A stretch of DNA of 64,000 nucleotides from Cloacibacterium caeni (lineage in GTDB: Bacteria; Bacteroidota; Bacteroidia; Flavobacteriales; Weeksellaceae): positions 2,309,001-2,373,000 of the forward strand of contig NZ_OU015321.1 of assembly GCF_907163105.1 (NCBI RefSeq). Reading direction: 5' to 3'. Numbering within the stretch: position 1 is the stretch's first letter; each line of letters begins with the position of its first letter. The position numbers and the translations under genes were made by a program. The notes under the pieces were generated by a model. It was not told the DNA's origin, made no database searches, and saw only the letters and a program-made list of their open reading frames with translations. Positions 1 to 60,546 of the stretch are shown here, one piece after another.

Positions 1-626
1 CAGTAACTGCTATTTTGGGTGGTTCTAAAGTTTCTACTAAAATTACCATTATCGAAAATATTTTACCAGCAGTTGATAATTTAATTATCGGAGGTGGAAT
101 GTCTTTTACTTTTATTAAAGCTTTAGGCGGAAATATCGGAACTTCTTTATTAGAAGCTGATAAAATGGATTTGGCTTTAGAAATTTTAGAAAAAGCTAAA
201 TTAAATAATGTAAAAGTTTTCTTACCTGTAGACGTAATTGCTGCAGATGAATTTAATAATGATGCACATAGAGAAGAGGTAGATATTTATCACATTCCAG
301 AAAATATGATGGGAATGGATGCAGGTTCTAAAACTAGAGAAATCTTCCATGATGTGATTATGAATTCTAGAACTATCCTTTGGAACGGACCGATTGGAGT
401 TTTTGAAATGGAGAATTTCTCAGCTGGAACTAAAGCTTTAGGAGACAGTATAGACGAAGCAACTCAATTAGGAGCTTTCTCTTTAGTTGGAGGAGGAGAT
501 TCTGTAGCGTTTGTAAAACAAAACGGATATGCTGATAAAGTTTCGTATGTTTCAACAGGAGGAGGTGCTATGTTAGAATCTTTAGAAGGTTTAGAACTTC
601 CAGGAGTTGCTGCGATTAATAATTAA
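1..626 (+). CDS. pgk: Phosphoglycerate kinase, C-terminal part (5' end outside window)
   Basis: Glycolytic enzyme that transfers the phosphate of 1,3-bisphosphoglycerate to ADP in the cytoplasm. The frame is open from the first base (first whole codon at 3), so the gene starts upstream; the TTG at 15 lies inside the protein. About 207 residues are visible, which is the nucleotide-binding half of a roughly 395-residue enzyme. The family signatures LGGSK, the NGPxGVFE segment, GGGDSVAF and the closing STGGGAMLE glycine-rich loop are all present, and the protein ends normally at GVAAINN. The next reading frame begins only 2 nt after the stop. Identification is secure; only the N-terminal substrate domain cannot be judged. 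Confidence 0.97.
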
Positions 627-1980: not shown

Positions 1981-1998
1981 ATGTTTCACGTGAAACAT
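1981..1998. other. parS-type ParB binding site (copy 1)
   Basis: The 18-bp perfect palindrome ATGTTTCACGTGAAACAT contains the 16-bp bacterial parS consensus TGTTTCACGTGAAACA without a mismatch. It lies 7 nt beyond the mnmG stop codon. An identical palindrome lies on the other side of mnmG. parS sites nucleate ParB spreading for chromosome segregation and are found mostly close to the replication origin. Confidence 0.85.
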
Positions 1999-2005
1999 TT
2001 TACTT

Positions 2006-3871
2006 TTATCTTCCTAAATAAATAAGCAATACATTAATATCTGCTGGAGAAACTCCAGAAATCCTTCCAGCTTGTGCTATGGTTTTAGGTTGAATTTTAT
2101 TGAGCTTTTGTTTTGCTTCAGCGGAAAGAGATGAAATTTTAGAATAATCAAAATCTTCTGGAATTCTAATGGTTTCTAATCTTTGTAATTTGGCTACATT
2201 ATCTCTTTCTTTTTCTATATATCCTTTGTATTTAATATTGATTTCTGCCTGTTCTTTTTGCTCTTCATTATACTGTTCTACTTTTTCTTTGATGAAATCA
2301 ATAGCAGTTAATTTTTCTAAGGAAAGATTAGGTCTGGCAAGAATTTGTGCAGCTCTGTAAGCTTGGTCTACCGGTGAACTTTCATTAGCTTCTAGAATAG
2401 GATTGATAATACCAGGTTTTAAAGAAGTTTCTCTCAGAAATTCTTCTAATTCCGAAGATTTAGCCACTTTTTCTTCCATATTTTTGAGTCTTTCTTCTTT
2501 AGCTAGACCAAGATTGAAAGCTTTTTCTGTAAGTCTAATATCAGCATTATCTTGTCTTAAAAGCAGTCTGTATTCTGCTCTAGAAGTAAACATTCTGTAT
2601 GGTTCTTCGGTTCCTTTGGTAATTAAATCATCTATTAAAACTCCTATATATGCTTCATCTCTGCTAAGTATGAATTCATCTTTTTCGTGAACTTTATTAT
2701 GAGCATTAATTCCTGCCATCAAACCTTGTCCAGCTGCTTCTTCGTAACCAGTAGTTCCATTTATTTGACCAGCAAAATAAAGGTTTTCTATCAGTTTAGT
2801 TTCCAAAGTATGTTTTAATTGAGTAGGAGGGAAGTAATCATATTCTATAGCGTAACCAGGTCTGAAAATTTTAGCTTTTTCAAAGCCAGGAACATGGTGT
2901 AATGCTTTCAATTGAACATCTTCTGGTAATGAAGAACTAAAGCCATTTACATAAACTTCTACGGTATTCCAACCTTCAGGTTCAGCAAATAATTGATGAC
3001 GGTTTCTTTCCGCAAAACGGTTGATTTTATCTTCAATACTTGGACAATATCTTGGTCCAATACTTTGGATAGTACCATTAAACATTGGAGATTTATCAAA
3101 TCCAGTTCTTAGAATTTCGTGTACAGTATCATTGGTATAAGTAATGAAACAACTGCGCTGTTTCGTTAATTTAGGAGTATCTAAATAACTGAATTTTTGC
3201 GGATTTTTGTCTCCAGCTTGTTCTTCCATTTTAGAATAATCAAGGCTTCTTCCGTCTACACGAACTGGTGTTCCTGTTTTCATTCTACCAGCTTCAAAGC
3301 CTAAATCTACCAATTGTTCGGTAATTCCATAAGCTTTTGGTTCTCCCATTCTTCCTCCTCCTAACTGTTTATCACCAACGTGAATCAGGCCATTTAGGAA
3401 AGTTCCATTGGTTAAAACCACAGATTTTCCTTTTATTTCTATACCTAAAGAAGTAATTACGCCTTCTACTTTGCCATTATTGATGATTAAAGATTTCACC
3501 ATATCCTGAAAAAAATCAAGATTTGGCGTGTTTTCTAGAACATATCGCCATTCTTCTGCGAATTTCATTCTATCATTTTGTGTTCTAGGAGACCACATTG
3601 CAGGTCCTTTTGAAAGGTTAAGCATCTTGAATTGAATAGCAGATTTATCAGCTACAATTCCGCTAAAACCACCCATTGCATCTATTTCTCTTACAATTTG
3701 ACCTTTTGCAATACCACCCATTGCTGGATTGCAAGACATCTGTCCGATGGTTTGCATATTCATTGTAATAAGCACGGTTTTAGAACCTAGATTAGCAGCA
3801 GCAGCAGCAGCTTCGCAACCAGCGTGACCAGCTCCTACTACGATTACATCATATGTTTCGTTAAATAACAT
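2006..3871 (-). CDS. mnmG: tRNA uridine-5-carboxymethylaminomethyl modification enzyme MnmG
   Basis: With MnmE, this FAD- and NADH-dependent enzyme makes the cmnm5 group on the wobble uridine of several tRNAs. The 621-residue length is the family norm. The FAD dinucleotide fold VVGAGHAGCEAA is at residues 11-22, followed by the MSCNPAMGGIAKG signature, then GPRYCPSIEDK, which holds a conserved Cys, and the C-terminal helical MnmE-binding domain ending in GRISGVSPADI. Older name gidA. The gene is transcribed alone and is flanked on both sides by parS palindromes, which fits the frequent origin-proximal position of this gene in bacteria. No parAB genes are next to it here. Confidence 0.97.
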   Translation of the reverse strand: MLFNETYDVIVVGAGHAGCEAAAAAANLGSKTVLITMNMQTIGQMSCNPAMGGIAKGQIVREIDAMGGFSGIVADKSAIQFKMLNLSKGPAMWSPRTQNDRMKFAEEWRYVLENTPNLDFFQDMVKSLIINNGKVEGVITSLGIEIKGKSVVLTNGTFLNGLIHVGDKQLGGGRMGEPKAYGITEQLVDLGFEAGRMKTGTPVRVDGRSLDYSKMEEQAGDKNPQKFSYLDTPKLTKQRSCFITYTNDTVHEILRTGFDKSPMFNGTIQSIGPRYCPSIEDKINRFAERNRHQLFAEPEGWNTVEVYVNGFSSSLPEDVQLKALHHVPGFEKAKIFRPGYAIEYDYFPPTQLKHTLETKLIENLYFAGQINGTTGYEEAAGQGLMAGINAHNKVHEKDEFILSRDEAYIGVLIDDLITKGTEEPYRMFTSRAEYRLLLRQDNADIRLTEKAFNLGLAKEERLKNMEEKVAKSSELEEFLRETSLKPGIINPILEANESSPVDQAYRAAQILARPNLSLEKLTAIDFIKEKVEQYNEEQKEQAEINIKYKGYIEKERDNVAKLQRLETIRIPEDFDYSKISSLSAEAKQKLNKIQPKTIAQAGRISGVSPADINVLLIYLGR

Positions 3872-3906
3872 TTATATCTATTTATAAATTTTCTATTTTT
3901 TTTCAA

Positions 3907-3924
3907 ATGTTTCACGTGAAACAT
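3907..3924. other. parS-type ParB binding site (copy 2)
   Basis: Second copy of the 18-bp palindrome ATGTTTCACGTGAAACAT, identical to the one at 1981-1998 and 1926 bp away from it. It sits about 35 nt upstream of the mnmG start codon, so ParB binding there could also influence mnmG transcription (inference). Confidence 0.85.
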
Positions 3925-3957
3925 TGTATAAATTTTATTACCAATTACGGAATGTAA

Positions 3958-4119
3958 CTAGCCCCGATTGACTCCAAATTAATTTATTTTTCAATTTGAG
4001 TCGTCTAAACTCGTTCCTCGCTTTGAAGCATTTGTTTGAGCTCTTTTTATATTTTTGTATGGGGCAAAAAGCGTCTGGAAAATATAAAAAAGCGAGTGCG
4101 GAAAGCGGGAATAGCTTCT
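3958..4119 (-). repeat. Intergenic 3'-end repeat element, copy A
   Basis: On the minus strand it starts about 10 nt after the ybeY stop with AGCTATTCCCGCTTTCCGC and ends with CAATCGGGGCTAG. Inside are complementary arms (TTTTTTATATTTT and AAAATATAAAAAGAG) and a second inverted repeat (GACTC-AAATT type). The layout of GGGC/CCCG ends, a TTCCGC block and a variable central stem matches the elements at 20803-20880, 58791-58883 and 62325-62403. Confidence 0.6.
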
Positions 4120-4127
4120 GAAAAATT

Positions 4128-6742: not shown

Positions 6743-9190
6743 TTAATCTTTTATGTAGATTCTTTTTACTCTTCTAGAAATAGAAGTAAGCACTTCATAA
6801 GGAATGGTTTGGCAATATCCAGAAAATTCTTCCAAAGTTGGATTACCGTTAAAAATAATCACTTCATCTCCTTCTTTGGCTTCAATATTCTGTAAATCAA
6901 CCATTAACATATCCATGCAAATATTTCCTACGATGGAAACTTTTTGGTTATGAATGCCTACAAATCCTTTTTTATTGCCAATTAATCTAGGAATTCCGTC
7001 TGCATAACCTACAGGAATCGTAGCAATTCTGGTGTCTTTTTCTGCTTTGTATTTTCTATTGTAACCTATTGATTCTCCTTGTTTTACTTCAGAAATTTGT
7101 GAAATTACGGTTTTAAAAGTTACAGCACTTTGTAATTGTTTTTTCACTTTTGGATTGGCCGAAATTCCTACCATTCCTATTCCAATTCTTACCATTTCAA
7201 ACTGATAATCAGAATAATAGGTAATTCCAGCAGTGTTTAAAATATGTCTGATGGGTTGATAACCCAAAACTTCAGAAATTTTAGAAGAAACTCTTTGGAA
7301 TGTACGAATTTGCTCCATCGTGTAATCATCTTCTTCAGGAACGTCTGCAGAAGAAAGATGGCTAAAAATACTGGCAACTTTTACATTGTATTTTTTAAGA
7401 TTTTCTACCAATTCATCTATTTCATGTTCCTTAAAACCAAGACGATGCATCCCAGTTTCTACCTTGATATGAATAGGATATTTCTGCTGAATTCCCTTTA
7501 ATTGCAATTGGTTAGCAAAAAGTTCTAATACTCTCAAACTGTAAATTTCTGGCTCGAGATTATAATCTATAATCACATCATAACTGCCTTGTTCAGGATT
7601 CATGACCAAAATGGGTGTGGTGATTCCATTTTTTCTAAGGTCTACTCCTTCATCTGCGTATGCAACACCCAGATAATCAATGTGATGATGTTGCAAAAAT
7701 TCTGCAATTTCATAACCGCCAAGTCCATAAGAATAGGCTTTTACCATCGCACACATTTTGGTTTCTGGTTTTAGCAAAGACTTATGAACATTAATATTAT
7801 GCAGAATAGCGTTGAGATTTATTTCTAAAACAGTATCGTGTTTTTGAAGTTCTAAATGTGATTTTATTTTCTCAAATTCAAAAATTCTTGCTCCTTTCAG
7901 CAGAATTAATTGATTTTCAATGGAATTGAGTTGTTGGCTCTCTAATAATTCTTTTGTGGTAGAAAAAGTATATGTTTTAGCATTAAATTTTTCTTGAAAT
8001 CTAGAAATTTGATTGCCAACTAAAAATATCTGTTTGAAATTTTGCTGATTGGTAATTTCTGCCACTTTATGATACAGCGAAACATCATCATTTTTTACAT
8101 CAAAAATATCCGAAAGAACTAAGGTTTTTTCGTCTCTATTATACTGATTAATAAACTGATATGCAATAATGAGCGAGTCTAAATCTAAGTTAAAAGAGTC
8201 ATTGATAATCAAATTATTACGAACTCCATTTACACTTTCTAATCGCATTTCTACCGCTTTCAGATTGTTGATTTTTTCAACTATTTTTTCGTTGGTAAAA
8301 CCAAATTCTTTTAAAATACAGATTAACGCCAAAGCATTGGTAAGCGTAGCTTCGTCTCTTTGGTTCGCAGGAAAACTCAATTTTTCTGAGAAATATTGAA
8401 CTAAAATTTCTTGATTTCTATCTTTATAATCACAGATAATTTTTACATCATTATGAGCTTTTAGACCAAAGCTAATCAGTTTTTTGTAAGAATATTGCGT
8501 TTTTATTTCTTTACAAACTTGCTCATTATCACCATTATAGATAATAATTTCTGAATTTTTGAAAAGAATCAGTTTTTCTTTAATCAGCTGAAGTTCATTT
8601 TCGAAATTAGAAGAGTGCGCCGTTCCAATGTGAGTTAAAATTCCAATTTTAGGAGAAAAAATTTCTTCTAAAGTATTCATTTCTTGTGGTTTAGAAATTC
8701 CCACTTCGAAAATTCCTACTTGATGTTTCTCTGAAGTTTGTAACAGAGAAATCGGTAAACCAATCTGTGAGTTGAAACTTTTTGGGGATTTCACCGTTGG
8801 AAATTCATTCCATAAACATTGGTATAACCATTCTTTCACGATGGTTTTTCCGTTACTTCCCGTAATTCCTATGGTTTTAATAGGTTGATTTTCAATATGA
8901 TAATGTGCTAAATCTTGTAGAAATTTTACAGAATTTTCTACAATAATCCATGTAATTCCTTCGTATTCTGAATAAAAATTTTCAGAAATAATGATTTTAA
9001 TTCCTTTTTCTATCGCTTGTGCGATGTATTTCTCACCAGAATTTTTGGGAGTATTGATGGCGATAAAAGCAGTTTTGAGGGTAGAATAAATATTTCTGCT
9101 GTCAAAAGCAATATGATGAATTTGCAGATTTTTATTCCCAATGATTTGAGATTGAGTAATTTCTGCTATTTCTTTTGTGGTGTAATTCAT
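6743..9190 (-). CDS. Bifunctional MurF / alanine racemase fusion
   Basis: An 815-residue fusion that supplies and uses D-alanine for peptidoglycan. Residues 1 to about 440 are a MurF-type ligase adding D-Ala-D-Ala to UDP-MurNAc-tripeptide, with the ATP loop GITGSNGKT near 107. Residues from about 455 are alanine racemase: the PLP lysine lies in AMVKAYSYGLG, the second catalytic Tyr region is GESIGYNRKYKA, and the barrel ends with GNICMDMLMVDL. MurF-Alr fusions are a known Bacteroidota trait. The Walker-type loop reads GKTI where GKTT is usual. The start ATG overlaps the tdk stop as TAATG, which implies translational coupling. Confidence 0.95.
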   Translation of the reverse strand: MNYTTKEIAEITQSQIIGNKNLQIHHIAFDSRNIYSTLKTAFIAINTPKNSGEKYIAQAIEKGIKIIISENFYSEYEGITWIIVENSVKFLQDLAHYHIENQPIKTIGITGSNGKTIVKEWLYQCLWNEFPTVKSPKSFNSQIGLPISLLQTSEKHQVGIFEVGISKPQEMNTLEEIFSPKIGILTHIGTAHSSNFENELQLIKEKLILFKNSEIIIYNGDNEQVCKEIKTQYSYKKLISFGLKAHNDVKIICDYKDRNQEILVQYFSEKLSFPANQRDEATLTNALALICILKEFGFTNEKIVEKINNLKAVEMRLESVNGVRNNLIINDSFNLDLDSLIIAYQFINQYNRDEKTLVLSDIFDVKNDDVSLYHKVAEITNQQNFKQIFLVGNQISRFQEKFNAKTYTFSTTKELLESQQLNSIENQLILLKGARIFEFEKIKSHLELQKHDTVLEINLNAILHNINVHKSLLKPETKMCAMVKAYSYGLGGYEIAEFLQHHHIDYLGVAYADEGVDLRKNGITTPILVMNPEQGSYDVIIDYNLEPEIYSLRVLELFANQLQLKGIQQKYPIHIKVETGMHRLGFKEHEIDELVENLKKYNVKVASIFSHLSSADVPEEDDYTMEQIRTFQRVSSKISEVLGYQPIRHILNTAGITYYSDYQFEMVRIGIGMVGISANPKVKKQLQSAVTFKTVISQISEVKQGESIGYNRKYKAEKDTRIATIPVGYADGIPRLIGNKKGFVGIHNQKVSIVGNICMDMLMVDLQNIEAKEGDEVIIFNGNPTLEEFSGYCQTIPYEVLTSISRRVKRIYIKD

Positions 9191-60355: not shown

Positions 60356-60430
60356 GGGTTCTTAGCTCAGTTGGTTCAGAGCATCTGGTTTACACCCAGA
60401 GGGTCGGGGGTTCGAATCCCTCAGGACCCA
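60356..60430 (+). tRNA. tRNA-Val (anticodon UAC), copy 1
   Basis: 75 nt. Acceptor GGGTTCT/AGGACCC, D arm AGCTCAGTTGGTTCAGAGC, anticodon stem TCTGG/CCAGA with loop TTTACAC (anticodon TAC) and T loop TTCGAAT. The discriminator base is A; CCA is not encoded. Confidence 0.96.
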
Positions 60431-60462
60431 CAAAAAAGGAACGAAACCTTTTAAAAAAATTC

Positions 60463-60537
60463 GGGTTCTTAGCTCAGTTGGTTCAGAGCATCTGGTTTAC
60501 ACCCAGAGGGTCGGGGGTTCGAATCCCTCAGGACCCA
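60463..60537 (+). tRNA. tRNA-Val (anticodon UAC), copy 2
   Basis: 75 nt, identical to the copy at 60356-60430. The 32-nt spacer carries a small AAAGG/CCTTT stem. A terminator follows 9 nt later. Confidence 0.96.
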
Positions 60538-60546
60538 CAGAAATAG

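Follow-up and report, generated by a model that had tools for sequence, protein, structure and literature searches.

Here we report that two perfect copies of an 18-bp palindrome flanking mnmG in Cloacibacterium caeni very probably form the chromosome's parS centromere, served by a parAB operon 0.83 Mb away and lying near a probable replication origin in the gap between rpiB and pgk. The genome is a single contig of 2,718,917 bp (2.72 Mb), and the window, the whole stretch of 64,000 nucleotides that was analysed, covers genome positions 2309001-2373000. The gene between the two sites, mnmG (gidA; window 2006-3871, minus strand), encodes a tRNA modification enzyme of 621 amino acids with a GIDA domain (E 2e-165).

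Site 1 (1981-1998) ends 7 bp beyond the mnmG stop codon and site 2 (3907-3924) starts 35 bp ahead of its ATG, giving a start-to-start spacing of 1926 bp. Each is the perfect palindrome ATGTTTCACGTGAAACAT, and the 16-bp parS consensus TGTTTCACGTGAAACA is matched with no mismatch at 1982-1997 and 3908-3923; 23 of 24 bases (96%) are common to 1979-2002 and 3905-3928. The initial annotation of this DNA, made from the letters alone, had claimed perfect parS palindromes on either side of mnmG and judged chance a very unlikely source. The coordinates and the consensus match proved exact, and the consensus occurs at these two places only in the genome, with about 0.001 exact copies expected per genome from base-composition arithmetic and none found for a reversed control pattern; the palindrome is thus confined to the flanks of mnmG and not scattered evenly along the chromosome.

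Within the window, no further 16-mer match was found at up to two mismatches, a tolerance at which 0.05 would be expected. Genome-wide, up to three mismatches gave 14 parS-like sites and 22 for the reversed control, which places weaker sites at or below background with perhaps one exception. This is a site with two mismatches inside a DUF2520 gene (L033:13854-13869, genome 2293854), 17 kb from the nearer parS; it has one mismatch in two congeners (G048 and G033). At 15-19 kb from the mnmG start, it is kept in all four genomes of the genus examined and missing at the same codons in all six genomes of other genera compared, and because of this absence it stays a lead: on sequence grounds, perhaps a weak third parS site.

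Several features of the surrounding DNA may be recorded in their own right. The 3' part of pgk occupies window 1-626 on the plus strand (PGK domain; the gene begins to the left, outside the window, at genome 2308436). The non-coding stretch at 3925-4127, from parS site 2 to ybeY, contains GAAAGCGGGAATAGCT, which recurs in the same gap of three genomes of the genus (G061, G048 and G033) and nowhere else among 274 loci. At 6743-9190 a single protein is encoded in which an alanine racemase is joined to a Mur ligase middle domain, and an Rfam scan of the window returned two tRNAs and nothing else, these being tandem tRNA-Val (tac) genes at 60356-60431 and 60463-60538. Gene order closer to parS is mostly kept across the genomes compared, with only five genes in common with G062. 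In G022 and G099 (L259 and L261) the genes at about 16-18 kb on the upstream side of the mnmG start are those found 28-31 kb downstream in C. caeni; their position on the opposite side indicates that rearrangements crossed the origin block.

The association of parS with mnmG is widely conserved. Of 100 genomes of the same family, 61 carry the exact palindrome (two copies in 45, one in 16, never more) and none carries the control pattern; the other 39 are without an exact copy in a search for exact matches only. In all 31 of the 45 two-copy genomes for which places were printed, the copies are 1891-1939 bp apart. At the level of individual loci we took 80 named mnmG loci, the best 80 of at least 587 confirmed relatives, and counted as a site any occurrence of TGTTYCACGTGRAACA with at most one further change and an intact CACGTG, looking up to 300 bp to either side of the gene. 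The closest named loci among the matches listed, a listing that leaves out records very near the source genome, belong to an unclassified Flavobacteriales assembly (94% identity) and to Chryseobacterium species (about 87%). Among these best 80, an upstream site is present in 79 and fits TGTTYCACGTGRAACA without mismatch in 77; a downstream site is present in 66, all 66 being flanked on both sides, and 52 carry exact copies on both sides. Only two sites lie elsewhere within those loci.

The 14 loci not flanked on both sides are of several kinds. One stops at a contig edge (L130), three have a single site (L132, L142 and L147), and nine carry sites, two or three each, on the upstream side only; these nine we take to be unclassified Flavobacteriales, Crocinitomicaceae and Cytophagia. 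The last, from a Bergeyella zoohelcum assembly (L126), failed the test for the CACGTG core. Its sites, 20 bp upstream and 10 bp downstream of mnmG, are one-mismatch versions, TTTCCCGTGAAA and TTTCACGGGAAA, with mirror-image changes in one half, so that each is half like parS and half like a Noc site; judging from these letters, the preference of ParB in this organism may have shifted.

A draw across the phylum comprised 31 genomes and returned 30 loci, including C. caeni and one family member, two of them with a shortened flank. A perfect TGTTYCACGTGRAACA lies within 1.5 kb of mnmG in 22 of the 30, and in 26 when one more change is allowed; ten have sites on both sides of the gene and four have none, including G101, where dnaA is near mnmG. 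From this distribution across the sampled sequences, the layout is old in Bacteroidota.

Could the palindromes instead be dedicated operators or attenuators of mnmG, through which ParB or another regulator, bound ahead of the start and beyond the stop, controls transcription, any centromere role being incidental or absent? Site 2 is near enough to the ATG to overlap a promoter, the upstream distance is near constant, at 42-49 bp, in most Chryseobacterium loci, and spreading of a plasmid ParB silences adjacent genes according to the accessible text of PMC7333895. Against this, the distance of the nearest upstream site from the mnmG start ranges between 6 and 63 bp across the best 80 of at least 587 loci, the nine loci just described have upstream sites only, and in G102 and G107 all sites, three in each, are downstream of the gene. 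At the sites themselves there is no promoter-like or terminator-like match, by a sigma-70 consensus that may not suit the phylum. The ParB consensus and a position close to mnmG stay constant and the register does not, as sites may be upstream, downstream or both; this is expected of a centromere held at the origin and argues against a dedicated operator, which we therefore consider improbable. The initial annotation had also suggested that site 2 may couple ParB spreading with mnmG expression; such coupling is hypothetical here, and the variation in site position speaks against an operator of that kind. That the palindromes arose by chance, or are decayed and functionless at present, is practically untenable, as nothing was found in its favour (mismatched versions elsewhere are at background level) and it would have to accommodate two exact copies where about 0.001 were expected and none was seen for the control, the exact palindrome in 61 of the 100 genomes of the family against 0 of 100 for the control, and 77 perfect upstream sites among the best 80 of at least 587 loci.

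The centromere reading places the sites close to the replication origin, and the initial annotation had likewise proposed that the window is origin-proximal. In 12-kb samples, gene orientation dominated the raw GC skew and made it noisy; a correction in which third codon positions are averaged over both gene orientations resolved the signal. The prevailing sign of the corrected skew flips at about 2.28-2.31 Mb and back at about 0.92-0.94 Mb, with several sampled stretches of opposite sign on both arms (e.g., at 0.28, 1.26, 2.22 and 2.49 Mb). A two-breakpoint model fitted to 563 genes put the origin at 2.28-2.30 Mb and the terminus at 0.92-1.02 Mb; a finer scan of 538 genes, from which reading frames cut by stretch ends were dropped, fitted best with the origin at 2.284 Mb, and positions from 2.282-2.308 Mb lay within 4 deviance units. 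The best fit is 28 kb to the left of parS (sites at 2.311 and 2.313 Mb). Forcing the origin to the rpiB-pgk gap costs 3.97 deviance units and forcing it to parS 7.74, while dnaA costs 36.9 and takes the wrong sign. From best fit, interval and costs together, the skew puts the origin no further than about 30 kb from parS, with no finer resolution, which, with a gap rich in DnaA boxes next door in relatives, bears out the proposed proximity. In two other genomes, each sampled 20 times (G053 and G062), placing the origin at parS brings no loss of fit relative to the best position, and an origin at dnaA never fits with the right sign; in G053 dnaA is located at the terminus. G037 agrees, but its skew is weak (origin interval 2.29-2.78 Mb), and dnaA is there only 7.6 units worse.

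The divergent gap between rpiB and pgk, identified by the LacAB_rpiB and PGK domains of the flanking products, is our candidate for oriC (genome 2307778-2308435, L034 from 11778 on; 658 bp). It is 79% AT and sits on the edge of the skew interval; it falls 0.6 kb short of the window, 2.5 kb from the nearer parS and 4.5 kb from the other. All 11 genomes compared have an AT-rich gap, about 0.5-0.6 kb long, at a distance of 4.0-5.9 kb from the mnmG start, and clusters of at least three DnaA-like boxes per 400 bp occur, in the regions scanned, only at this gap, in 5 of the 11. A shorter gap 2.7-3 kb from the mnmG start recurs in several genomes without a box cluster. Counted over 11 genomes, 24 boxes fall in ten gaps totalling 6.3 kb, compared with 17 in 42.5 kb of other non-coding stretches of at least 100 bp. 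When 91 loci were searched, pgk was found in 71 and the whole divergent gap in 58; these 58 gaps, which are not independent tests because the loci are related, contain 164 DnaA-like boxes, counted with up to one mismatch to TTATCCACA, where shuffles lead one to expect 13.75, and 24 exact boxes where 0.4 would be expected.

The candidate emerged only from this comparison with relatives. In the gap of C. caeni itself the only DnaA boxes are two that each carry one mismatch; no DnaA-box cluster was found near the parS sites in the organism's own sampled sequence, and a genome-wide search for paired strict boxes returned two pairs, neither near parS. On the comparative evidence, the rpiB-pgk gap is probably the oriC of C. 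caeni and of its family. For Elizabethkingia meningoseptica G4076, Ori-Finder predicted an oriC of 649 bp containing three DnaA boxes, with dnaA located elsewhere, in the accessible part of the account (PMC8994065), which names neither flanking genes nor parS. In E. miricola (L125) the rpiB-pgk gap measures 650 bp and likewise contains three DnaA boxes; the match in length and box number indicates that the predicted E. meningoseptica oriC is probably this same gap.

The gene for the initiator is far from this region. In C. caeni dnaA is at 1.152 Mb, and in the 12 single-contig family genomes that could be measured exactly, out of 14, dnaA lies 24-49% and parB 26-50% of the chromosome away from parS. 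Rounded sizes for the other two give about 27% for dnaA and 49% for parB in G079, and about 21% and 29% in G095. Distances outside the family vary: dnaA and mnmG are separated by about 25 kb in G127, by 14 kb in G101 and probably by less than 0.1 Mb in G102 (measured across the record ends with a rounded size), but by about 0.4-1.0 Mb in G106, G126 and G104. The separation is therefore a property of lineages and not of the whole phylum. In 12 species including two Bacteroidetes, the origin was not systematically coincident with dnaA, according to the accessible text of PMC10197239.

A partner for the sites is encoded in the same genome, where the initial annotation had advised looking for parAB. 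The ParB model has one match genome-wide, above its cut-off, in a single operon in which ParA (257 amino acids) precedes ParB (307 amino acids or somewhat less). This ParB has ParB_N, HTH_ParB and a C-terminal dimerisation domain, ParB_C, and its best matches among solved structures are Thermus Spo0J and other ParBs. The gene is at 1.478 Mb, 833 kb (31% of the chromosome) from parS. At the contact positions given in the accessible part of PMC7383237, which also sets the parS consensus against the Noc site TATTTCCCGGGAAATA, a hand count by ungapped spacing to Q162, G170, K171, N178 and R204 reads Q162, G170, K171, E172, R173, N178, S179, R184, G201 and R204. E172 differs from the published S172, and the GKERS stretch is also found in the solved ParB 7bnk.

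These residues bear on whether the sites bind a Noc-like nucleoid-occlusion protein in place of a partitioning ParB. The protein scores 248 bits against the NCBIfam Noc model and 171 against the general ParB model, but 248 is below the Noc cut-off of 315; the specificity residues R173 and G201 are of the parS type, as opposed to the Q173 and R201 that the same source gives for Noc, and the sites are parS, not TATTTCCCGGGAAATA. ParA adjoins this ParB, which is the only one in the genome, and we give a Noc-like identity hardly any credence.

Returning to the centromere reading, we propose that ParB produced from the distant operon would nucleate on the two parS sites, load there and spread over mnmG and its neighbours, and that ParA would then separate the replicated origin copies. 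ParB binding, CTP-dependent spreading, segregation and actual initiation of replication are here predicted by analogy with the family to which these proteins belong.

A condensin partner was sought with the SMC, SMC_N and ScpA models. No SMC match above cut-off was found in the C. caeni genome, where six weak partial matches appeared; SMC_N gave 18 matches, of which the two above cut-off are RecF and a RecN-like protein (the fragment scanned reached 371, the RecN cut-off being 408) and 16 are weaker. ScpA was not found in the genome by a search that detects it in 9 of 14 control genomes, Bacteroides and E. coli not being among the nine. The genome may encode a diverged condensin. No known condensin was reported for two Bacteroidetes in the accessible text of PMC10197239.

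Based on these observations, we suggest that parS beside mnmG can serve as an origin landmark for Weeksellaceae, and probably for much of Bacteroidota, where dnaA is distant, and we caution against taking dnaA as a marker of the origin in the family of C. caeni. The novelty is modest, this being a known kind of ParABS in a clean, conserved layout. Among the titles listed by a literature search none was on parS beside mnmG, and the link may be printed in Livny et al. 2007. With two sites and no SMC or ScpA detected, the role of ParB without condensin becomes directly testable. As a speculation about which we are ourselves doubtful, the region could be a very old origin module in which selection keeps parS, mnmG and oriC together and lets dnaA and parAB move freely. 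The centromere, reduced to a minimum of two sites, would be served in trans and would lack a recognisable SMC-ScpAB; origin segregation and arm organisation would then fall to ParA and ParB alone, or to an unrecognised condensin loaded at the sites.

A parAB operon near parS and the origin is usual, and SMC-ScpAB is a common loading partner, although neither is obligatory. The C. caeni system resembles the ParABS of Bacillus subtilis and Caulobacter, as far as the accessible descriptions go, in its exact TGTTTCACGTGAAACA, a parAB operon with canonical domains and sites near the skew origin; it differs in the distance of parB from parS, in having two strong sites only, which flank mnmG, and in giving no SMC or ScpA match above cut-off. 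Bacteroides caecimuris and Muribaculum intestinale, which presumably belong to a different class from C. caeni, provide a second comparison. Hi-C data from these species, in the accessible text of PMC10197239, indicate that parS clusters mark the origin and that dnaA need not; C. caeni is alike in having parS on the origin side, dnaA elsewhere and no SMC or ScpA match above cut-off, as no known condensin was found in the two Bacteroidetes. The ancestral origin gene cluster, as given in the accessible part of PMC2099444, comprised gidA, gidB, parA, parB, dnaA, dnaN, rpmH and others. In C. caeni mnmG (gidA) is still beside the origin as in that cluster, whereas dnaA and parAB are far away, and mnmG, parS and the rpiB-pgk gap are found together.
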